The notes under the pieces were generated by a model. That model saw only the letters and a program-made list of their open reading frames with translations. It was not told where the DNA came from and did no database searches. From Blautia sp. (lineage in GTDB: Bacteria > Bacillota > Clostridia > Lachnospirales > Lachnospiraceae): a stretch of DNA of 32,028 bases. This document shows positions 131 through 32,028 of this stretch, piece after piece. Each line of letters begins with the position of its first letter. The first letter of the stretch is position 1. The translations under genes were made by a program, and so were the position numbers. The stretch covers positions 1 through 32,028 of the forward strand of contig JAFTPT010000022.1 of assembly GCA_017463155.1 (NCBI GenBank), given 5' to 3'.

Positions 131-2401
131 TTGCCGCTTACTCATGACATGGGAAAATGCAAGGATGAGTTTAAAGAATATCTCATTTCTGCGGCAACTG
201 GAAAAGATGTTGAGAGGGGTTCTGTGACACATACATTTGCAGGAGTTCGATATCTTCTGGAGAAGTATCATGTTGCTGAAACGGAGGGATCCGCAACTTA
301 CTATACAAGTGAGATCATTGGATATGCGATCGGGGCACATCATGGATTGTTTGATCTGGACGGACCTGCTAAAGTTAATGGATTTACACATCGTCTGGAA
401 GCTTTGAATACTCACTACGATGAGAGCAGGACGAATTACTTGAACGAGTGCCTTTCCCAAAAAGAAATTGATGAACTCTTTCAGAAAGCTGCGCACGAAA
501 TGGAAGTGGTTCTTACTTTAGTGAATAATCTTCCAGCGTGGGAAGACAAAGATATAAATTATTGTAGTAACGAAGTAAAATTCTATGTCGGACTGTTAAC
601 CAGGCTTCTTTCTTCTGCACTTATAGAGGGAGACCGTTCTGATACAGCGTCATTTATGTCAGAAGGAAGGATCTCCTTCGAAAAAGAAGCGGATGATCTA
701 TTATGGGAAAACTGCATTGCGAGAATTGAAGAGAAAATAAGTAGTTTCCCTTGTGAAAAGCCAATAGATCAAATGCGGCGAACGATTTCAGACATGTGCA
801 AAGATGCGGCAGGGCGTTCCGACGGAGTATTGAGGCTGAATGTCCCAACAGGAGCAGGTAAAACACTTTCGTCATTGCGATTCGCCGCTGCGCATGCCAG
901 AACTGCATCCAAAAAACGCATCTTTTTTGTGTCGCCGTTATTGACGATACTTGAACAGAATGCAGCCGTGATCAGGAATGCCGTTGGAGATGACAGTATT
1001 ATTCTTGAGCATCATTCTAATGTTGTAAGGGATAATGACAATAGTGAAACTGTCAGTGAAAACGAACTCCTATGCGAGAACTGGCATTCACCGATTGTAA
1101 TCACCACAATGGTACAGCTGCTGAATACTCTGTTTTCTGGGAAATCTTCTTCAATCCGACGCTTTCACTCTCTCTGTAGCAGTTTAATTGTGATTGACGA
1201 AGTACAGATGATTCCGACCCATATGCTGTCCATGTTTAATTTGGCGGTGAACTTTTTGGCTGAAGTCTGTCATGCGACAATACTTCTTTGCTCAGCCACA
1301 CAACCTTGTCTTGAAGAAGCGGATCATCCGCTTGTAAAAGATATTCCACAGTTAGTACCTTTCGACAAGTCCATGTGGAATACCTTCAAAAGGACAGATC
1401 TAATCAACGCAGGAGTAAAGGATTACCAGGAAATAGATGCCTTTGTTAAAGATATTTTGGAAGAAAAGAGGAGCCTCCTGATCATTTGCAACAAAAAGGC
1501 GGAAGCGGAACGCTTGTTCATCCTATTTTCCGATATAGAAAAAGTTGACTTATTTCATCTTTCGGCATCTATGTGTCATAGACATAGGGAAATCGTGCTT
1601 AAAGAGATAAAAAACAGTTTGGCAAAAGAAGGTATGCAGCACAGAACCTTATGTATCGCAACACAGGTCATAGAAGCGGGGGTGGATATTTCTTTCGCAT
1701 GTGTAATCAGACTGACGGCTGGTTTAGACAGCATCGTCCAGTCAGCCGGAAGATGCAATCGAAACGCTGAAGATCCTAATCCCGCCCCCGTCTATGTGGT
1801 CAGACTTCAGGGTGAGGATTTGTCTCATCTTTCCGAGATAAAGCGTGCGAAAAATGCTTTTATAGAGTTGTTGAATGCTTTTGAACAAAACTCGGAAATA
1901 TTCGACCACGATTTGATGTCGGAGGAAGCTGTGGAGTATTACTATAGCAGACTTTACAAAGAGATGGAAACAGGCTATCAAGATTATCCGCTAAAGAAGT
2001 TCAGCACTTCGCTTTACGGACTAATGAGCGGGAATGAGCGTTTTCGAAAAACGAATCACTCTTATTATCTATGTCAGGCATTTCAGACAGCCGGAAAATA
2101 TTTTAGTGTATTCGATGAAAATACGGTAGATGCGATTGTCCCGTATGATGAAGGAAAGTCTATCATAGCGGATCTTCAGGATGAAGGCGTGCGCTTTGAC
2201 TATTTCCAGCGTAGGGAATTGTTGGAAAAAGCGAAGGGATATACGATACCGCTTTTTGCTTATCAGAAGGAGCATCTCGAATCTGAAGGTGGGATTTACT
2301 ATATTTGCGACGGGACAATTGCTGTTTTACAGGATGGTTATTACGATAATAATATTGGAATGACTTTGAAGAAAAGGCGGATGGGATTTATGGAGGTATA
2401 A
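131..2401 (+). CDS. cas3: CRISPR-associated nuclease-helicase Cas3, type I-C, N-terminally truncated
   Basis: Cas3 is recruited by target-bound Cascade to nick and degrade DNA, using an HD nuclease fused to an SF2 helicase. The HD dyad is at residues 5-6 (THDMGK), followed by GSVTH and AHH metal-binding positions. Helicase motifs follow: Walker A GAGKT at 241-245, DEVQ box at 356-359, SAT (LLCSATQP), and motif VI QSAGRCNRN at 537-545. The 756-aa frame begins at TTG with no Shine-Dalgarno, and an in-frame stop lies at 89-91. Family members normally carry roughly 40-60 residues before the HD dyad, including the first metal-binding His (H..TA helix). These are absent in every frame upstream. The helicase part appears intact and cas5c follows 2 nt later. 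Nuclease activity, and perhaps expression, is therefore doubtful. The identity is certain; the start is not. Confidence 0.9.
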   Translation: MPLTHDMGKCKDEFKEYLISAATGKDVERGSVTHTFAGVRYLLEKYHVAETEGSATYYTSEIIGYAIGAHHGLFDLDGPAKVNGFTHRLEALNTHYDESRTNYLNECLSQKEIDELFQKAAHEMEVVLTLVNNLPAWEDKDINYCSNEVKFYVGLLTRLLSSALIEGDRSDTASFMSEGRISFEKEADDLLWENCIARIEEKISSFPCEKPIDQMRRTISDMCKDAAGRSDGVLRLNVPTGAGKTLSSLRFAAAHARTASKKRIFFVSPLLTILEQNAAVIRNAVGDDSIILEHHSNVVRDNDNSETVSENELLCENWHSPIVITTMVQLLNTLFSGKSSSIRRFHSLCSSLIVIDEVQMIPTHMLSMFNLAVNFLAEVCHATILLCSATQPCLEEADHPLVKDIPQLVPFDKSMWNTFKRTDLINAGVKDYQEIDAFVKDILEEKRSLLIICNKKAEAERLFILFSDIEKVDLFHLSASMCHRHREIVLKEIKNSLAKEGMQHRTLCIATQVIEAGVDISFACVIRLTAGLDSIVQSAGRCNRNAEDPNPAPVYVVRLQGEDLSHLSEIKRAKNAFIELLNAFEQNSEIFDHDLMSEEAVEYYYSRLYKEMETGYQDYPLKKFSTSLYGLMSGNERFRKTNHSYYLCQAFQTAGKYFSVFDENTVDAIVPYDEGKSIIADLQDEGVRFDYFQRRELLEKAKGYTIPLFAYQKEHLESEGGIYYICDGTIAVLQDGYYDNNIGMTLKKRRMGFMEV

Positions 2402-2403
2402 CA

Positions 2404-3162
2404 ATGAAAACAAAACATCCAAACATTGTTGAATTTGAAGTTACAGGTGCCTATGCTCTGTTTTCTGACCCTATTATGAGGGTTGGAGGAGAAAAGTGCA
2501 GTTATCAGATTCCAACATATGAAGCTCTGAAAGGTATCCTCGCATCCGTGTATTGGAAGCCAACGTTTATATGGTACATTGATGCAGTGCGTATCATGAA
2601 CCGTATTCAAACAGAGGTAAAAGGCATCAGACCTATCAAATATTCCGGAGGGAACGAACTGGCTTATTATACTTATCTTAAAGATTGTCGTTATCAGGTG
2701 CGGGCTCATTTTGAGTGGAATGATAATCGGCCTGAACTGTCCGAAGACAGGAACGAGAACAAGCATCATGAGATTGCAAAAAAGATGGTTCGTAAGGGAG
2801 GCCGCAGAGATATCTTCTTGGGAACGCGTGAATGTCAAGGATTTGTGGAGCCCTGTGTCTTTGGAGAAGGGGAAGGGGCGTATGATGATCTTCAGCATCT
2901 GGCCTTCGGCACGATGTATCATGGCCTAACATATCCGGATGAAGGATATTCAGATGAGACGAGAACACACCTCTCCAAAAATCTTTGGCAGCCGGTCATG
3001 AAAAATGGTGTTATCAATTTCCTTCGGCCGGAGGAGTGTCCAGTGCACGAGCTGCTTCATGAAATGCCGGTTAAACTATTTGGGAACGACGCGGGAAACT
3101 TCTCCGGATTAAATGAGTTTAAAGGAGGTGAGAGAAATGGGACTCCTGCAGATGGCGTATGA
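2404..3162 (+). CDS. cas5c: Cas5c (Cas5d), type I-C Cascade subunit and crRNA endoribonuclease
   Basis: A 252-aa RAMP protein. In type I-C systems, which lack Cas6, Cas5c cuts the pre-crRNA within the repeat and then caps the crRNA 5' handle. The N-terminal EFEVTGAYALFSDPI strand and the glycine-rich GTRECQGFVEP loop fit the family. Y39 (in TYEALKGI) and K120/H121/H122 (in NENKHHEIAKK) lie where the Tyr/Lys/His catalytic set of characterised Cas5d proteins is found, so processing activity looks preserved. The gene starts 2 nt after cas3. Its last 26 nt overlap cas8c, and the cas8c ribosome binding site lies inside it, which implies translational coupling. Confidence 0.93.
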   Translation: MKTKHPNIVEFEVTGAYALFSDPIMRVGGEKCSYQIPTYEALKGILASVYWKPTFIWYIDAVRIMNRIQTEVKGIRPIKYSGGNELAYYTYLKDCRYQVRAHFEWNDNRPELSEDRNENKHHEIAKKMVRKGGRRDIFLGTRECQGFVEPCVFGEGEGAYDDLQHLAFGTMYHGLTYPDEGYSDETRTHLSKNLWQPVMKNGVINFLRPEECPVHELLHEMPVKLFGNDAGNFSGLNEFKGGERNGTPADGV

Positions 3163-4948
3163 AACATATGATAAGGCGGAAAAAGACTATGCCGGGATTA
3201 TCCGAAGTGATATGCGAGAGCCTCTGGCGCCGATTTCGCATGCTATAGCCACTGCTGGTGTAGAAATCACTATCAATCAGGATGGATATTTCGTAAATGC
3301 GGATATCGTCGATAAAGAAAATGCGAAGACAATCATACCCGTCACAGAAGAATCTGTAGGAAGAACCAGCGGGGCCTGCGCACATCCACTCTGCGATCAG
3401 ATCGGATATCTGGATCCGCGCAACTCTGAAAAAAACAACCTGTATATGGATCAGTTAAAGAGATGGCTGGAATCTGAATACACGCATCCGATGCTGATGC
3501 CGGTATATACATACGTTTCCAGAGGAAGTGTCGTAAACGATCTTCTCAAATCAGGCTGCGTAAAGCCGGGAGAGATAGAAGGAACTGTTAAGGATGAAAA
3601 AGTCTTTATTAGATGGCGCGTCATCGGTATCGGGGATGAAAGTGGTGCTTGTTGGACAAACAGAAATTTGCAAAAGGCATTTTCTGCGTGGTATGTGAGT
3701 ACGCTAGACAAGTCGGACAAGGTAATTTGTAGCATCACTGGTAAGGAAACATTACCGGCAAAACAACACATTAAGGGAATTGTGGCATTGAATGGGAACG
3801 CCAAGCTGATCAGCGCTAACGATAGGACAAATTATACATATCGTGGCAGATTCCTTGATGATTCAGAAGCAGTTTCCATCGGCTACATTGCATCCCAGAA
3901 AGCACATAATACGCTCAAATGGCTGATTGCGAATCAAGGTGTCCCTTATGGTGGAAGAACATTTGTATGCTGGAATCCGGATATGAGGCCGCTTCCTAAA
4001 CCAACCGGGCTTATGGGACCGCCGACAGGTAAAAAAGAAAGCGATCCGGTTTTTCTGTTAAGTGATTATAAAAAGAATCTTCGAAATGCACTACAAGGTT
4101 GGGAAACCAATCTCCCATTGGGATCAAAAGCTGTGATAGCTTCTTTCGATGCAGCTACAAGCGGCCGCCTGTCACTGAACTATTATAACGAATTGCAGGC
4201 ATCCGATTTTCTGGAGAGACTTGCATGGTGGGACGAAACATGCTGTTGGCTTAATGGTCCATATGGCATCCAATCACCGCCTCTTTATAGAATAATACAA
4301 TTTGCTTATGGATCACTCAGATCAAATCAAATGGAAGTGGACGTCAAGGTTTCCAGACAGATTATGATGCGTCTTCTTTCTTGTCGAATTGATAAGGCTC
4401 TTATGCCGTCCGATATAGTGAAACGATTGATTGATAAATGTCAGAGTCAGGAATTATATCCAGATGACAAAGAATCCAGATATCTTCGAAGTACACTGAT
4501 TCATTGTTCATGTGCTGTGATAAGGAAGTATTACATTGATCATTTTAAGGAGGAATGGAGTATGGCTTTGGAACCTGAAAAAAGGGACAGAAGCTACCAA
4601 TATGGAAGGCTGCTGGCCATTTTTGAAAAAATGGAGAAAGATACTTATCAAATCAGTGAAGGCCGGGAGACAAATGCAATCCGCATGCAGTCTGTCTTTG
4701 TGAAAAAGCCCTTATATGCTACCCGTATTATTTATGAACAGATCAATCGTGCCTATGCGCCTCGGCTGAGAGAGGGACAGCGCGCATATTATGAAAAACT
4801 GATTGGTGAGATTATGGCCGTTATCAGTGATCTGCCCGATAGTGACCAGGACAAGGCGTTAGCCGATTCCTATATTATAGGATATTGTCTGCAGAAGAAC
4901 GAGTTTTATACGTCAAGAAAAAAAGAAGAGAGCAATGAGGAGGAATAA
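3137..4948 (+). CDS. cas8c: Cas8c (Csd1), large subunit of type I-C Cascade
   Basis: The 603-aa large subunit recognises the PAM and helps recruit Cas3. The N-terminus MGLLQMAYETYDKAE, the LAPISHAIATAGVEI segment and the CAHPLCDQIGYLD region are characteristic of the Csd1/Cas8c family. ATG at 3137 was chosen over the in-frame ATG at 3113 because AAAGGAGGTGAG lies just upstream, as expected for a Shine-Dalgarno, and because the conserved family N-terminus begins there. It overlaps cas5c by 26 nt and is followed 2 nt later by cas7c. The length is normal and no frameshift is visible. Confidence 0.93.
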   Translation: MGLLQMAYETYDKAEKDYAGIIRSDMREPLAPISHAIATAGVEITINQDGYFVNADIVDKENAKTIIPVTEESVGRTSGACAHPLCDQIGYLDPRNSEKNNLYMDQLKRWLESEYTHPMLMPVYTYVSRGSVVNDLLKSGCVKPGEIEGTVKDEKVFIRWRVIGIGDESGACWTNRNLQKAFSAWYVSTLDKSDKVICSITGKETLPAKQHIKGIVALNGNAKLISANDRTNYTYRGRFLDDSEAVSIGYIASQKAHNTLKWLIANQGVPYGGRTFVCWNPDMRPLPKPTGLMGPPTGKKESDPVFLLSDYKKNLRNALQGWETNLPLGSKAVIASFDAATSGRLSLNYYNELQASDFLERLAWWDETCCWLNGPYGIQSPPLYRIIQFAYGSLRSNQMEVDVKVSRQIMMRLLSCRIDKALMPSDIVKRLIDKCQSQELYPDDKESRYLRSTLIHCSCAVIRKYYIDHFKEEWSMALEPEKRDRSYQYGRLLAIFEKMEKDTYQISEGRETNAIRMQSVFVKKPLYATRIIYEQINRAYAPRLREGQRAYYEKLIGEIMAVISDLPDSDQDKALADSYIIGYCLQKNEFYTSRKKEESNEEE

Positions 4949-4950
4949 TC

Positions 4951-5796
4951 ATGGGAAATCTGAAGCATAAGATTGATTTTGTAGCTGTTGTTACTGCGGA
5001 AATGGCGAATCCAAACGGAGATCCCTTAAATGGGAACCGGCCTCGTACGGATTATGAAGGACTGGGCGAAATCTCAGACGTTTGTATTAAAAGGAAGATC
5101 CGAAATCGTATGCAGGATATGGGACATGCTGTGTTTGTTAAGTCCGATGATCGTTGTGATGATGGATATGAAAGCCTTAGTAAAAGAGCAGAAGGAAATG
5201 GATTTAAGACCATAAAAGATCAGGATGAATTCTATAATAAGGCATGCAAAACTTGGCTCGACGTTCGTTCTTTTGGACAAGTATTTGCATTTAGTGGACT
5301 TACTTGTAAATCAGTCGGAATCAGAGGACCTGTTTCTATTCATCAGGCGGCGAGTGTTTCTCCGGTGGAAGTTATTTCCATGCAGATCACGAAGAGTGTC
5401 AGTGGAGAGAAAAAGGGTGATAGCCGGGCTTCAGATACTATGGGAATGAAGCATTTTGTTAAGTTTGGGCTCTACACGATCAAAGGATCGATCAATGTTC
5501 AGTTGGCTGAAAAAACCGGCTTTACGGAAGAGGATGCCGAGGTGATCAAGGAAGCCCTCCGTACACTTTTCATTAACGACGCGTCATCTGCTCGCCCCGA
5601 CGGGACCATGGAGATGGTCAGGCTTTATTGGTTTGAGCATGATTGCAAAGACGGTCGGTATTCCACTGCTAAAGTGCATCGTTCTGTCAAAATCTCAATT
5701 AAAAATGGAATCGTTATTCCGACATCGATCGATGATTATGACATTACTGTAGAAGCGCTGGAAGGATTGGAGCCGGAGATCATTGAAGGAATTTGA
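4951..5796 (+). CDS. cas7c: Cas7c (Csd2), crRNA backbone subunit of type I-C Cascade
   Basis: A 281-aa RRM-fold protein that polymerises along the spacer part of the crRNA. Recognised from the N-terminus HKIDFVAVVTAEMANPNGDP followed by GNRPRTD and a basic segment (CIKRKIRNR). Further family marks are FGQVFAF...GIRGPVSIHQA and the later GMKHFVKFGLY. The length matches the family. AGGAGG precedes the ATG. The last 14 nt overlap the start of cas4. Confidence 0.94.
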   Translation: MGNLKHKIDFVAVVTAEMANPNGDPLNGNRPRTDYEGLGEISDVCIKRKIRNRMQDMGHAVFVKSDDRCDDGYESLSKRAEGNGFKTIKDQDEFYNKACKTWLDVRSFGQVFAFSGLTCKSVGIRGPVSIHQAASVSPVEVISMQITKSVSGEKKGDSRASDTMGMKHFVKFGLYTIKGSINVQLAEKTGFTEEDAEVIKEALRTLFINDASSARPDGTMEMVRLYWFEHDCKDGRYSTAKVHRSVKISIKNGIVIPTSIDDYDITVEALEGLEPEIIEGI

Positions 5797-6451
5797 AGAA
5801 GAAAGCTATCTGATGATGTCAGGTATCCAGCATTTCTGCTTCTGCCGCAGACAATGGGCATTGATCCATATTGAACAACAGTGGAATGAAAATGTCCGTA
5901 CTGCCGCAGGCAGAGTAGAGCATATCAGGGCCCACGATGAAGACAGTGTCGAAAAAAGAGGAGATCTCCTGATCGTACGTGGGCTCAGAGTCATTTCACA
6001 TGAGCTGATGCTTTCAGGTACCTGTGATGTAGTGGAATTTCGAAAAGAAGAGAAGAACGGTATCCCTATCCGGTATTGCGATGGCCTATGGCTGCCTATG
6101 CCTGTGGAATACAAGCATGGAAAGCCGAAAGTATCAGATGCAGATAGGCTCCAACTATGTGCGCAAACGATAGCACTTGAGGAAATGCTCGTTTGTCAGA
6201 TTCCAACGGGCGCGCTTTATTACCATGAGACGCGGCATCGGGAGTATGTAGACATGACGGACGACCTGAGGAATATGACGAAGACTTATGCGGAAGAAAT
6301 GGCCGGCTATTTCAAAAGGGGATATACTCCAAAAGTAAAGACAGGAAGTTATTGCCGCGCATGTTCTTTGAAAGATCTGTGCCTTCCGGTATTATGTAAA
6401 AATAAAGATGTAGGTGCTTACATCGATGAAGCTATAGGTATGACCATATGA
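5783..6451 (+). CDS. cas4: Cas4, Fe-S RecB-family exonuclease of the adaptation module
   Basis: Cas4 trims prespacers and helps Cas1-Cas2 select and orient PAM-bearing fragments. In this 222-aa protein D82 (GTCDVVEF) and E109-x-K111 (PVEYKHGK) form the PD-(D/E)xK nuclease site, and LQLCAQTIALEEM is the Q/Y motif region. Cysteines C21 (HFCFCRRQW), C191, C194 and C200 (SYCRACSLKDLC) can bind the 4Fe-4S cluster. The start is TTG, overlapping cas7c, with GGAG upstream; an internal ATG at residue 11 or 12 is an alternative. It overlaps cas1 by ATGA. Confidence 0.93.
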   Translation: MKEFEEESYLMMSGIQHFCFCRRQWALIHIEQQWNENVRTAAGRVEHIRAHDEDSVEKRGDLLIVRGLRVISHELMLSGTCDVVEFRKEEKNGIPIRYCDGLWLPMPVEYKHGKPKVSDADRLQLCAQTIALEEMLVCQIPTGALYYHETRHREYVDMTDDLRNMTKTYAEEMAGYFKRGYTPKVKTGSYCRACSLKDLCLPVLCKNKDVGAYIDEAIGMTI

Positions 6452-7479
6452 GACATCTCCTTAACACATTATACGTCACATCACCTGAAAACAGACTAAA
6501 CCTGGATGGAGGGAATGTGATTGTTTCCAGAAATAGCGAAGTAGTAGCCAGAATACCTCTTCACACACTGGAATCGATAGTCTGCTTTTCGTATTCAGGC
6601 GCAACACCAATGCTTATGGGGGCTTGTGCAGAAGCGGGGATCGATCTGAGCTTTTTTAGTCCGCATGGTAGTTTTTTGGCCAGAACGGTCGGAGAGGAGC
6701 GTGGAAACGTTCTCCTTCGTATGGAGCAATACAGAATTTCTGATTCGGTTGAGGCAAGCTGCACCTATGCTCGCAACATGGTCTTGGGAAAGGTATATAA
6801 TGCCAGAAAAGTCATAGAGAGAAGCCGAAGAGACCACTCTATGAGAATACCCATTGAAAAGGCAGAAAGGATTTCCGGGCAGCTTTTAGATTCCTTGGGA
6901 AAGATCAGATCGTGTAATGACTTGGATAGTCTTCGGGGAATCGAAGGAGAAAGTGCACAGAGATACTTTGATTATTTTGATGATTTGCTTTTGCAGCAGA
7001 AAAAGGAATTTGCTTTTAAAGGCAGATCCCGTCGTCCACCTATGGACCGGATAAATGCTTTGCTGTCCTTTGTATATTCACTTCTGGCTGGCGACAGTGC
7101 AGCAGCGCTTCAGTCTGTCGGATTGGATCCATATGTGGGATTTATGCACAGACCTAAACCCGGAAGAAGAAGCCTGGCGTTGGATCTTATGGAAGAGTTC
7201 AGGCCGGTTATGGGTGACCGTTTTGCACTTACTTGCGTTAATCAGAAAATGATACAGCAAGATCATTTTAATATCCAGGAAAGCGGAGCAGTTTTTCTGA
7301 ATGATGAAGGCAGACGAATAGTGTTACGAGCTTGGCAAGAGAAAAAGCAAGATCAAATAAGACATCCGTTCCTTAATGAGAAAGTGGAGTGGGGGCTGAT
7401 TCCATATGTGCAGGCACTTCTTCTAGCCCGGACTATTCGCGGGGATCTGGAAGCATATCCACCGTTTTTCTGGAAGTGA
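6448..7479 (+). CDS. cas1: Cas1 integrase, type I-C
   Basis: A 343-aa metal-dependent integrase that inserts new spacers at the leader-repeat junction, as a complex of two Cas1 dimers and one Cas2 dimer. The catalytic set is visible: E166 in LRGIEGESAQRYF, H234 in GFMHRPKPGRRS and D246 in LALDLMEEF. The N-terminal LNTLYVTSPENRLNLDGGNV hairpin domain is typical of I-C Cas1. The ATG overlaps the cas4 stop (ATGA). Full length and undamaged, so adaptation could still work even if cas3 does not. Confidence 0.95.
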   Translation: MRHLLNTLYVTSPENRLNLDGGNVIVSRNSEVVARIPLHTLESIVCFSYSGATPMLMGACAEAGIDLSFFSPHGSFLARTVGEERGNVLLRMEQYRISDSVEASCTYARNMVLGKVYNARKVIERSRRDHSMRIPIEKAERISGQLLDSLGKIRSCNDLDSLRGIEGESAQRYFDYFDDLLLQQKKEFAFKGRSRRPPMDRINALLSFVYSLLAGDSAAALQSVGLDPYVGFMHRPKPGRRSLALDLMEEFRPVMGDRFALTCVNQKMIQQDHFNIQESGAVFLNDEGRRIVLRAWQEKKQDQIRHPFLNEKVEWGLIPYVQALLLARTIRGDLEAYPPFFWK

Positions 7480-7486
7480 GGCAAGT

Positions 7487-7777
7487 ATGTTGGTAGTGGT
7501 AACTTATGATGTCAATACGGAGACAGGAGAGGGAAAGGCACGGCTTCGTAAAGTGGCTAAAAAGTGTATGGCATATGGACAGAGAGTACAGAATTCTGTA
7601 TTTGAGTGCCTATTAGATGAAGCACAGCTGGTTGCCTTTCAGACGGAGTTAGTCACTCTGATCAATCCAGAAACAGATAGTCTTAGATTCTACAAACTTG
7701 GAAACCAGTACAAAAATAAAATCAATCATTTTGGGGTGCAATTGGATTATCCCCAAGACGAGATACTGATAATATAA
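7487..7777 (+). CDS. cas2: Cas2, adaptation complex subunit
   Basis: A 96-aa ferredoxin-fold protein that dimerises and bridges the two Cas1 dimers. MLVVVTYDV with D8 is the usual beta-1 motif. YGQRVQNSVFECLL and the C-terminal beta-strand (DEILII) match the family. It starts 7 nt after cas1 with a GAGGCAAG-type ribosome binding site. It is the last cas gene; the CRISPR leader follows directly. Confidence 0.95.
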   Translation: MLVVVTYDVNTETGEGKARLRKVAKKCMAYGQRVQNSVFECLLDEAQLVAFQTELVTLINPETDSLRFYKLGNQYKNKINHFGVQLDYPQDEILII

Positions 7778-7956
7778 TTGCGTGTGCGAACTTGGAGTCC
7801 TCATAAAAACTCAGGGAGGTTCGCACCAAAAAATGTGCTTGAAAGATTGACTATCCACTATATTCAAATGGTCTAATCGATAAAGCACAATTGCAAAAAC
7901 AGAAAAACTATGAATTATTTACAAAAAAACAGTTCAGATATTTGGCTGTTTTTGCT
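7778..7956 (+). promoter_or_regulatory. CRISPR leader
   Basis: An A+T-rich stretch between cas2 and the first repeat, on the side from which the array is read. It contains an 8-bp inverted repeat, GTGCGAAC (7784-7791) and GTTCGCAC (7819-7826), of a kind often seen after cas2 in I-C loci. Just before the first repeat lies a hairpin with AAAAACAG pairing with CTGTTTTT (about 7924-7953). No clear -10/-35 pair was identified, so the array promoter is inferred, not located. Confidence 0.7.
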
Positions 7957-8516
7957 GTCCCGCCCCACGCGGGCGGGTGGATTGAAATAATATTGTAAAG
8001 AGCCTGATTCCGGGATATGGCCGTCCCGCCCCACGCGGGCGGGTGGATTGAAATGTTTTTATTTGACAATAAAACATAGTACCTAACGTCCCGCCCCACG
8101 CGGGCGGGTGGATTGAAATAACAACTTTGAAGGACGGAAGTACGATTTCACCGGTCCCGCCCCACGCGGGCGGGTGGATTGAAATTGTGATGAGCTCACG
8201 ACAAAGGAAACGATGCAGAAGGTCCCTCCCCACGCGGGCGGGTGGATTGAAATACCTGCCTTATCAACCTTATACTGAAGGTTACTGTCCCGCCCCACGC
8301 GGGCGGGTGGATTGAAATAGTGGTTGAACATAGGAAATATATGTCATCCATGTCCCGCCCCACGCGGGCGGGTGGATTGAAATAGATTGACCGTCACTTC
8401 CCTGCCGATCTTGATGGGTCCCGCCCCACGCGGGCGGGTGGATTGAAATAAGGTTGGCGCAGTAGTGACGGATATTGATAAGATGTCCCGCCCCACGCGG
8501 GCGGGCGAATTGACAT
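7957..8516 (+). CRISPR. Type I-C CRISPR array, 9 repeats and 8 spacers
   Basis: The 32-nt repeats begin GTCCCGCCCC, have a GC-rich palindromic core (CCCGCCC..GGGCGGG) and end GTGGATTGAAAT, giving the ATTGAAA-type 5' handle of I-C crRNAs. Repeats start at 7957, 8023, 8088, 8154, 8222, 8287, 8352, 8418 and 8485. Spacers are 34, 33, 34, 36, 33, 33, 34 and 35 nt. Repeat 5 has one change (G to T at position 6). The last repeat differs at positions 22, 24 and 30, marking the leader-distal end. Seven repeats are identical. Reading direction is + from the leader beside cas2. Confidence 0.98.
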
Positions 8517-8540
8517 ACACGTTCCCGCAGGGCGTTTTGT

Positions 8541-8568: not shown

Positions 8569-8646
8569 CAGAAAAGAATTATGACATGTCTTTACGGAAC
8601 ACAAGATGTGCAGTACGGCACATTTTGATAGATGGAGCTGTTAACG

Positions 8647-9084
8647 ATGTTAAACATTTATTTTGGAAATATGCCGGATTCTATCTACAATACGACAGTT
8701 TTTTTCAAAAATGATTACGAGGATGAATGGATCCTGGATCCACTTGTCAAGGAAATGATATTGGATGTTGACAAATCCGAGGTTCTTGATAGTGGCGTGA
8801 TCGACAGCCCGGTCCTCGGAAAGATTCCTCCGCTTGGTTTGTCAGGAGGGGTAAAAACATTGATTCTGGTCCTGTTTGAGCCGGGAAAGGTTTTTAATGC
8901 TTCAACCTGCGGAGACAACTGTGCCAAATGGCTACTGAAAATTGCTGAGCATGAGGACCGCACAGTCAATCTCCGTCATATCATGGATTTCGGACGTGAA
9001 CCGATAGAAATAAAGATCCTGAATAACGGTGAGATTGTTCATTCGATGAAGGAGCTTACCGAGACAGCAATCGAGTACTTGTGA
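8647..9084 (+). CDS. DUF4869 domain-containing protein, function unknown
   Basis: A 145-aa protein recognised as a DUF4869 member from MLNIYFGNMPDSIYN, the SPVLGKIPPLGLSGGVKTLIL stretch and the FNASTCGDNCAKWLL segment with two cysteines. No enzymatic motif, signal peptide or membrane segment is visible. ATG at 8647 was preferred to the in-frame ATG at 8632 because GGAG lies 9 nt before it and the family N-terminus begins there. It lies 9 nt before a P-loop protein gene; I recall the two families as frequent neighbours in Clostridia, which suggests a functional pair. The role is unknown, and no link to CRISPR is shown beyond proximity. Confidence 0.75.
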   Translation: MLNIYFGNMPDSIYNTTVFFKNDYEDEWILDPLVKEMILDVDKSEVLDSGVIDSPVLGKIPPLGLSGGVKTLILVLFEPGKVFNASTCGDNCAKWLLKIAEHEDRTVNLRHIMDFGREPIEIKILNNGEIVHSMKELTETAIEYL

Positions 9085-9093
9085 GGTGATCAT

Positions 9094-9537
9094 ATGAAGG
9101 GGATACATCGTATCATCATTCAGAACAAGCGCCTTCGCTATGATTTTGAGGTGAGACGGAATTTGACTGTCATCCGGGGAGACAGTGCGACCGGCAAGAC
9201 AACGCTGATTGATATGATCCAGGAATACAATGATAATGGGGATGCGAGCAGCATTGAACTTGCATCAGACAAACAGTGCTTTGTATTACAAGGGGCCACA
9301 TGGAAGGGGCAGTTGACGGAAATCAATGACAGCATTGTTTTTATCGATGACGGAAATGCGTTTGTGTCCTCAGATGAATTTGCTGAGACGATTCGTAATA
9401 CAGATAATTACTACGTGATTGTGACAAGAGAAGGGCTTTCTAATCTTCCATATAGTGTGGAAGAGATTTACGGAATTCGCCTCAGCGGCAGATATGGCGG
9501 CTTAAAGCAGAAATATAATGAATTTTACAGAATTTAA
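9094..9537 (+). CDS. P-loop ATP-binding protein partnered with DUF4869, apparently C-terminally truncated
   Basis: A 147-aa protein with a Walker A motif GDSATGKT at residues 29-36 and a Walker B-like SIVFIDDGN strand, followed by NYYVIVTREGLSNLPYSVEEIYGI. As I recall the family, full-length members continue about 100-150 residues past the NEFY segment with a second acidic, Toprim-like part (motifs of the type VVEDSNSG). Here the frame stops two residues after NEFY and a strong terminator begins at the stop codon. This looks like a 3' truncation, though a natural short form cannot be excluded. GAGGTGAT precedes the ATG. Function unknown. Confidence 0.65.
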   Translation: MKGIHRIIIQNKRLRYDFEVRRNLTVIRGDSATGKTTLIDMIQEYNDNGDASSIELASDKQCFVLQGATWKGQLTEINDSIVFIDDGNAFVSSDEFAETIRNTDNYYVIVTREGLSNLPYSVEEIYGIRLSGRYGGLKQKYNEFYRI

Positions 9538-9578
9538 CAAGACAGGGAACAAGACAGCCCCCTGTCTTGTTATTTTTT
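9537..9578 (+). terminator. Rho-independent terminator after the P-loop gene
   Basis: An 11-bp perfect stem (ACAAGACAGGG at 9537-9547, CCCTGTCTTGT at 9560-9570) and 12-nt loop are followed by a T-rich tail (TATTTTTTAT). It overlaps the stop codon of the P-loop gene and marks the end of the A+T-rich segment. Confidence 0.85.
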
Positions 9579-9596
9579 ATCCAGTGGTTTCGAACT

Positions 9597-9620
9597 GCGT
9601 TCTGGAACGCGGAGCGTTCC
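9597..9620. repeat. Small overlapping hairpins
   Basis: GGAACGC (9604-9610) pairs with GCGTTCC (9614-9620) around a 3-nt loop. The first arm could alternatively pair with GCGTTC at 9597-9602. The two stems are mutually exclusive. No function is assigned. Confidence 0.4.
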
Positions 9621-9663
9621 ACCTGCTTTGGATAACCCCTGGCCGACAGCTGTGATTCCACGG

Positions 9664-9927
9664 CGAGCGCCGCATGCCGCGTTGGGGGGAGTACAGAGAT
9701 ATGCTGGCTGCGTAGGGACACTTCGCAGTCGACGCCAGGGATCGCGAGCATAGTTTCATACGTGCAGGCCGCCTTGGATCACATAACGTTACACAATCAA
9801 CAGTCCAGAGTTTTGATCCAAGGCTTGGCCGGAGCGTATGATAATCAATGGCGGAGCGATCCCAAGGAGACAAGCGTGTCCCGGGCAGCCACATATCTCG
9901 TCCCCCCCCAGGCAGCATGCAAGCGAG
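9664..9927. repeat. Giant imperfect palindrome, candidate structured RNA or MITE-like element
   Basis: Two ~115-nt arms (9664-9781 and 9814-9927) are imperfect reverse complements across almost their whole length, around a 32-nt centre. Matching blocks from the middle outward: GCCTTGGATCA with TGATCCAAGGC (perfect 11 bp), GGCC/GGCC with CATACG/CGTATG, GGGATCGC with GCGATCCC, GGGACAC with GTGTCCC, GAGATATG..TGGCT with AGCCACATATCTC, GGGGGG with CCCCCC, and GCATGC with GCATGC. Arm 1 can also fold with upstream sequence (CCCTGGCC-GAC near 9637 with GTC-GAC-GCCAGGG near 9728). No conserved protein is encoded on either strand. It occupies most of the 490-bp gap between the P-loop gene and the DUF362 gene. 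Confidence 0.7.
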
Positions 9928-9964
9928 CCCAGATTAATACCTTAAATTAGATCATGCAAGATAG

Positions 9965-9994
9965 TTGCACATCCTTTTTCAGGAGTGGTATGAT
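9965..9994 (+). promoter_or_regulatory. Probable SigA-type promoter of the DUF362-kinase operon
   Basis: TTGCAC (9965-9970), an 18-nt spacer and TATGAT (9989-9994) with an extended TGG just upstream. It lies 72 nt before the DUF362 start codon, leaving a short leader that contains the CTGCCGTGTGCGGGTG region. Confidence 0.65.
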
Positions 9995-10065
9995 AGATAT
10001 ATACCCTGCCGTGTGCGGGTGTGACATGATCATTAACAAAAACTACAGAAATGGAGGGCACAAGT

Positions 10066-28710: not shown

Positions 28711-28766
28711 GGAACGGGAAAAGACAGGGGACGGTTCTCTGTCTTTTTGGAACCGTCCCCCGTTCC
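28711..28766. repeat. REP-like palindromic element 1, also a terminator
   Basis: It fills the 60-bp gap between convergent genes. Long fold: GGAACG (28711-28716) with CGTTCC (28761-28766), and GGGGACGGTTC (28727-28737) with GAACCGTCCCC (28750-28760). Alternative fold: AAAAGACAG (28719-28727) with CTGTCTTTT (28739-28747), ending in a T run, a rho-independent terminator on the + strand. The two folds exclude one another. The GGAACGGGG / GGACGGTTC words recur at 31942-32028. Confidence 0.75.
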
Positions 28767-31941: not shown

Positions 31942-32028
31942 CGCGGAACGGGGGGACGGTTCTTCGTTCCATTCTGAGGAATGGAACGTAAGAACCGTCC
32001 CCCCGTTCCGCGAAGAACCGTCCCCCCG
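31942..32028. repeat. REP-like palindromic element 2, continuing past the window
   Basis: Arm 31942-31974 pairs with 31979-32012 across about 33 bp with a single-base bulge and a TGAG loop. The stem reads CGCGGAACGGGGGGACGG onward. A further half-copy (AAGAACCGTCCCCCCG, 32013-32028) follows and is cut by the window edge, suggesting a tandem cluster. It shares its core words with element 1 at 28711-28766. Confidence 0.85.

Follow-up and report, generated by a model that had tools for sequence, protein, structure and literature searches.

What is the long palindrome that lies between two genes in a Blautia sp. contig (JAFTPT010000022.1; the window is its positions 1 to 32,028, the whole stretch of 32,028 nucleotides that was analysed)? 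The initial annotation had described an imperfect palindrome of about 264 bp, and considered a large ornate RNA, a MITE or an antisense/dsRNA regulator. With a probability of about 80%, we consider it to be one copy of a non-coding, non-autonomous mobile hairpin repeat, REPIN- or MITE-like; that it belongs to a dispersed, mobile, non-coding repeat family is held with high confidence. The palindrome itself is well borne out. The segment 9664-9927 (264 nt, 58% GC) folds as a single hairpin on both strands, at -136.9 kcal/mol with 93 pairs, 91 of them arm-to-arm, on the + strand (z -9.5) and at -138.2 kcal/mol with 96 pairs, 94 of them arm-to-arm, on the - strand (z -12.1). These energies are far beyond the best of 100 dinucleotide shuffles per strand, which reached -100.4 (+) and -101.0 (-). 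For the wider segment 9600-9960, z was -7.6 and -7.8, and 0 of 100 shuffles were equally low. On the + strand the arms are paired from 9668/9925 on the outside to 9790/9807 on the inside; since the last pairs are weak, a tip of about 30 nt, close to the 32-nt loop originally proposed, describes it fairly. The alternative pairing of arm 1 with sequence near 9637 is also seen in the fold, where 9641-9645 pair with 9668-9671 and enclose a small hairpin at 9649-9664.

The extent of the feature had to be revised in one respect: the palindrome at 9664-9927 stands, but the unit that is repeated is longer, with similarity to other copies from about 9597 to 9952. The parts recognised in the window copy are as follows.

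9597-9952, + strand: whole copy of the dispersed repeat; similarity to other copies starts at about 9597 and stops at 9952
9603-9621, + strand: small perfect hairpin TGGAACGCGGAGCGTTCCA (sequence and copy alignment)
9668-9790, + strand: arm 1 of the long imperfect hairpin (fold)
9712-9885, + strand: conserved core matched by covariance model R2 (43.7 bits, E 9.3e-14)
9719-9753, + strand: 5′ side of the bulged core (CACTTCGCAGTCGACGCCAGGGATCGCGAGCATAG), nearly invariant in the copies of this genome
9807-9925, + strand: arm 2 of the long imperfect hairpin (fold)
9850-9882, + strand: 3′ side of the bulged core (GGCGGAGCGATCCCAAGGAGACAAGCGTGTCCC); site of the degenerate core 21-mer (21 occurrences in this genome)
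9932-9952, + strand: right terminal repeat, AT-rich, consensus ATWTAATACSTTAAATTAGAA (pattern search and sequences)

The initial annotation had matched the palindrome to none of the RNAs tested by eye; a search with Rfam 15 gave no family at gathering score anywhere in the whole window, and at E≤10 over 9530-10060 the sole match was mir-187 (E 4.2), outside the palindrome. Two antisense open reading frames of 89 and 113 aa in the ORF list run across the palindrome; we take them as spurious, given that they fall in a dispersed repeat.

The dispersion of the element was assessed in the genome of origin (3.07 Mb in 55 contigs, 92% complete). A DNA search gave 41 matches, including fragments and the window copy. 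Fifteen matches besides the window copy are 76-90% identical to it over more than 240 bases, and many of the others are fragments. The degenerate core 21-mer occurs at 21 places, and the covariance model R1, a core model built from the copies of this genome, has 21 strong matches there, along with six weak ones that correspond to the reverse strand of the same copies. The motif list and the R1 list have 20 places in common, one (C22) being found by the motif only and one (C55) by R1 only. All told, about 21 copies are scattered over this genome, the palindrome among them. For many of them, the nearest gene end is only tens of bases away, and copies are found at the ends of several contigs. At the DNA level, the element was matched neither in the 63 other genomes of the genus nor in phage, plasmid and viral collections, and the degenerate core 21-mer is absent from the GTDB collection of 84,980 genomes, in which the genome of origin was possibly left out.

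Comparison of the copies gives an idea of how the unit is built. It measures about 130-360 nt, and up to about 740 bp with extra modules. The hairpin TGGAACGCGGAGCGTTCCA is the left-side module of most long copies, another short palindrome taking its place in the C27 copy. Several copies have an additional palindromic module on their left, and some have short palindromes nested inside. The terminal repeat ATWTAATACSTTAAATTAGAA is found at 17 places in the genome with at most 3 mismatches; in this assembly, 92% complete, the surroundings of these sites (130 bases on the inner side, 60 on the outer) show hairpin copies or apparent remnants. At C43:27133, the copy has an inverted partner of the terminal repeat at its far left, so that the complete unit is of about 570 bp. 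At C43:43801, the terminal repeat is present at both ends and the unit is palindromic to its ends, with a left end that is the usual right end inverted; this may be seen as a sign that the arms can convert into one another. A left terminal repeat, as seen in these other copies, was not found in the window copy. As a separate observation, a second palindromic module (L014:2600-2960), with 26 matches in the genome, accompanies the hairpin on its left in several copies and is found as well where no core copy is listed, for instance at C22:45532.

Relatives of the element were sought with models that follow the fold as well as the letters. R1 found copies in three other genera. A looser gapped core pattern, run against the 84,980 GTDB genomes, gave 25 loci; L124, L134, L138, L140, L141 and L142 were dropped after folding, and the 19 others, which come from 12 genomes, adopt the same hairpin fold. 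According to their record titles, the hosts are Lachnospiraceae, Blautia, Lachnotalea, Lachnoclostridium and one Eubacteriales MAG. A further model, R2, was built from alignment A4, which contains 23 sequences, none of them from the genome of origin. R2 recovers the copies of that genome with E down to 8.6e-19. Within the family it matches 35 of 397 genomes (34 genera) at E≤0.01, the genome of origin included, and 29 at E≤1e-6, in a scan where about 4 chance matches are expected at 0.01 per genome and where at least three of the 35 genomes (G254, G442, G454) gave sequences to the model. Leaving the genome of origin aside, the counts become 34 of 396 and 28. Six of the 35 have at least 8 scored candidates each. 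In a phylum-wide draw, 4 of 398 genomes matched and only the genome of origin went beyond 1e-6; the remainder consists of two weaker matches in one genus of another family (8.2e-6 and 2.4e-5) and one marginal match. The palindrome might have had no homologue anywhere, a possibility raised at the outset; with R2, homologues are found in genomes of the family. Rfam searches on five relatives detected a true tRNA beside L113, all other matches being far below gathering scores; over the hairpin of one relative, the best match was mir-4773, scoring 26.2 bits where the gathering score is 100.

What is kept in these relatives is a bulged core. In the copies of the genome of origin, two nearly invariant stretches face each other as an internal loop, and the GAGCATAG part of the 5′ side of the core is kept across genera. 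The common core of A4 has a first loop with GATAGGCAG opposite AACGTG, a second with GAGCATAGC opposite AATARGCGGCGSAGC and, nearer the tip, a third with CTGTYTGAG opposite CGAGTT, present in many members of the alignment, not in all. Across genera, internal-loop sequences are kept while stems vary with pairing retained. Covariation beats chance: A4 has 62 double-change cells, compared with 19.9 +/- 3.8 in shuffled alignments and at most 27 in slid ones, for a structure chosen by hand from the folds in which helix 6 pairs in only 56.5% of the cells. The number of further standard pair types, 33, is weakly beyond shuffles, 38 of 500 being as high. Fourteen copies of the genome of origin gave 45 double-change cells (12.8 +/- 2.5 shuffled, at most 4 slid), on a structure obtained with RNAalifold from the same alignment and therefore biased towards itself; their 39 further pair types show no excess over shuffles (405 of 500 as high). 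The pairing was also examined by swapping arms between loci. For the terminal stem, arms from the same locus average -25.3 kcal/mol and swapped arms -12.6, and for the basal stem the averages are -51.0 and -23.9; the native partner is the best or equal to the best in 11 of 19 and 11 of 17 cases, respectively, among swaps that include related loci. Selection on structure, one of two origins suggested in the initial annotation, is thus supported for the bulged core, where pairing and unpaired sequence are both kept across genera.

As to the composition of the alignments, L126, which has a nested insertion in one arm, was left out of A3 and A4, and L130, a near-copy of L120, out of A4. The first L131 match, cut by the end of the locus, was left out of A3, and C55 and C19b, truncated or divergent, out of A1. 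Alignment A2 consists of 13 copies of the genome of origin picked for spread. In the L126 copy (L126:646-867), 43 bases are inserted in the 3′ arm and the inserted bases are themselves partly palindromic.

Evidence for mobility comes mainly from other hosts. The genome G359 has 8 copies of about 264 bp that are 96-100% identical, and five more long copies at 84-87%. Altogether, 82 matches at E≤1 are found there, with many partial copies and solo ends (13 long, dozens partial). The five copies examined have palindromic unit ends and flanks that are different, except that a different repeat, of about 140 bp, is found near both L183 and L185. Other sequences of about 320 bp with the same 24-bp end palindrome are arrayed with the element in this genome (L261:1709-2380, L257, L259), as if several hairpin families used one set of ends. 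In G344, the genes on either side of one copy are, from their Pfam domains, accC and an accD/accA-type gene. This insertion is absent in all 8 same-genus relatives where both flanks were strongly matched, their interval being 239-253 bp shorter; in base-by-base alignments 3 of these 8 passed a two-flank rule, and all three show the gap directly. Four more relatives, with weak distant flanks, are 123-282 bp shorter, and in one a single flank was matched. A core-like match was seen at another place in G853 and G860, which are among these relatives. A comparable pair is offered by two related Blautia genomes, where L121 has a hairpin of 255-257 bp, core-like by eye, and L133 has none at the same spot; R2 at E≤1e-4 did not report the L121 hairpin, which could instead have been lost from L133. 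At the L121/L133 junction, only 1-3 ambiguous bases could count as a target duplication, and no duplication was clear by eye in the copies of the genome of origin or of G359. A second, different hairpin is located on the other side at L121/L133. L121:7250-7531 is a nearly perfect branched hairpin of 282 nt, of another kind, which is missing at the same place in L133. At L128 and L143, the element occupies the same intergenic region in opposite orientation.

The MITE-type reading is supported by these observations: copies are dispersed, several of them carry terminal repeats, near-identical copies occupy different sites in a relative, and an insertion is missing in relatives of another host. 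A search by eye for a mover among 2055 ORFs near copies in 39 genomes found no transposase-like cluster common to at least three genomes; the clusters that do occur in at least three look like generic ATPase, regulator, transporter and enzyme families. Pfam searches on 10 proteins, mostly neighbours of copies, gave no transposase. It had also been envisaged that the palindrome would merge into a known transposon end; as far as tested, no such end was found.

Several other explanations may be weighed against this one. The hairpin could act primarily as a structured RNA: once transcribed, it would bind a protein or be processed, by RNase III for example, and its DNA copies would be multicopy genes or an RNA-mediated mobile element. 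Indeed, the conserved internal loops and covarying stems resemble an RNA motif, and the copy that separates accC from the next acc gene is probably co-transcribed. Helices covary as in a structured RNA, but arm-to-arm DNA conversion gives the same pattern. In other genomes, 14 of 19 copies fold more stably as the + strand, and copies oriented from codon-scored gene calls are on the same strand as the upstream gene in 15 cases and on the opposite strand in 3, with 2 lacking such a gene (14 and 4 for the downstream gene, again with 2 lacking one). In the genome of origin, however, there is no orientation preference (same strand 8, opposite 9, none found 4 for the upstream gene; 9 versus 12 for the downstream gene), and the - strand of the window copy folds as well as the + strand or better. 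Nor is G.T clearly above A.C on one strand. When one-by-one mismatches are counted on the + fold with G-U pairing forbidden, the ratio of G.T to A.C is 14:6 in the copies of the genome of origin and 13:12 in other genomes. It is 42:26 over 63 copies (p 0.07; by genome 16 versus 10, 15 equal), taken from 79 R2 matches after removal of the copies of the genome of origin, of some partial or weak ones and of duplicate loci. These counts give no clear strand preference. A strong excess of G.U over A.C seen early on the + strand was at least partly an artefact, because RNAalifold admits G-U pairs, and once these were forbidden no clear excess was left. Considering also that no Rfam relative reaches gathering score and that gain and loss of whole units fit a selfish DNA repeat, a primary role as RNA seems unlikely. 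Because whole units come and go, we lean towards an element that works as DNA.

Another view would be that of an ordinary DDE-type MITE, an internally deleted IS derivative whose transposase reads only double-stranded terminal inverted repeats, the hairpin interior being incidental. The inverted terminal repeats in the genome of origin and the palindromic ends in G359 agree with it. However, the conserved part is the interior core, and terminal repeats vary between genera. Moreover, within the short stretches viewed, the 17 terminal-repeat places are tied to hairpin copies or apparent remnants, and the L121/L133 junction lacks a clear target duplication, so that this explanation appears quite improbable. 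Finally, the palindrome may be imagined as a terminator or an mRNA-stabilising intergenic element, multiplied by recombination and gene conversion and not by transposition. The proximity of many copies to a gene end is in its favour, as is the apparent interconversion of arms at C43:43801, where the left end is replaced by the inverted right end. This scenario is nevertheless hard to reconcile with near-identical units having different flanks in G359 or with the G344 insertion missing in relatives, and a strong terminator would hardly be expected between accC and the next acc gene; we regard it as very improbable.

How would a mobile hairpin repeat move? In the mechanism that we favour, a single long hairpin would insert mostly between genes, under the action in trans of a protein presumably encoded elsewhere. 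The conserved bulges would be the likely recognition signal for this mover. They may be read on a single-stranded DNA hairpin, formed for instance at the replication fork, as TnpA_REP reads bulged REP hairpins; to such a single-stranded step we would give about even odds. For the stems outside the core, pairing would persist either through mutual correction of the arms or as a requirement of recognition. The difference in terminal repeats between genera would fit several unrelated movers as well as one. A broader proposal, put forward tentatively and with less assurance than the single-stranded step, is that giant bulged hairpins, nearly confined to Lachnospiraceae among the sampled genomes, move by a mechanism tied to no enzyme yet. 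In this proposal, the spaced internal loops would be a recognition code on single-stranded DNA or on an RNA intermediate, and the terminal repeats would be free to turn over between genera.

Comparison with known systems helps to situate the element. In common with MITEs, it is short, non-coding and dispersed, with several copies at different sites, and terminal inverted repeats are present in the C43:27133, C43:43801 and G359 copies. PATEs, which are non-autonomous IS200/IS605 derivatives, are palindromic and without coding capacity, no target duplication being expected; they keep the subterminal hairpins of their IS200/IS605 parent. The present element differs from them in layout, being a hairpin over its whole length. 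It would work like a REP or REPIN, but is not filed as a REPIN because size and layout differ: instead of two inverted REPs of 20-40 bp, there is one hairpin of about 130-360 nt. PMC3116915 argues that REPINs replicate as the hairpin doublet and describes frequent compensatory changes in them. The likeness to the elements described there lies in the intergenic, non-coding location, in many copies per genome with one hairpin as the mobile unit, and in segments conserved on both arms, the remainder changing in a compensatory way. As described in PMC3733652, REPs are of 20-40 bp and most have a GTAG or CGTC tag. Unlike the REPs of that description, the present element is about 130-360 nt long, has internal loops that are conserved as well as terminal repeats, and has been linked to no transposase. 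By eye, GTAG is present in the window copy (GCGTAGGG) and absent from several aligned rows. For the E. coli enzyme, PMC8266576 reports that TnpA_REP acts on single-stranded REP hairpins and that pairing up the bulge eliminated activity. A family closer in size is bcr1, with repeats of 147-167 bp and a predicted conserved structure (PMC2267715); its mobile-element character is taken from the title of a source cited in that article. Like bcr1 and similar MITE-like repeats of Firmicutes, the present element is a repeat family with a predicted conserved structure; bcr1 belongs to another host group, and the two are set side by side by description only. A literature search found no description of such a repeat, which is weak evidence as most subscription journals were outside the search.

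For the study of bulged hairpins, of their recognition and their movement, the element would offer a natural system in Gram-positive anaerobes. It is described by no Rfam family, and the 34 of 396 other family genomes counted above have a match at E≤0.01. Copies are located beside and between operon genes and may affect expression. They may also break assemblies, because several contig ends carry one.

The window copy is flanked by a 147-aa ORF and a DUF362 gene, which are both on the + strand, and is located about 1.1 kb downstream of a type I-C CRISPR-Cas locus and its repeats. The operon of this locus (131-8517) comprises cas3, one further ORF, cas8c, cas7c, cas4, cas1 and cas2, and is followed by the repeat array. 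The 147-aa ORF, upstream of the element, has only weak AAA-domain similarity. In 8632-9537, a DUF4869 protein precedes this ORF, which weakly resembles the beginning of an ATPase from a defence system (LmuB model, E 1e-7), and the two may perhaps form a small pair. At the stop of the upstream ORF, beside the element, a perfect 13-bp inverted repeat (9535-9572) is terminator- or REP-like. Further away in the window, a second short palindromic repeat, also REP-like, occurs at 28719-28763 and 31942-32028 (core GACGGTTC / GAACCGTC), the latter copy being at the contig end. A short palindrome similar to this repeat is nested inside some copies of the hairpin element.
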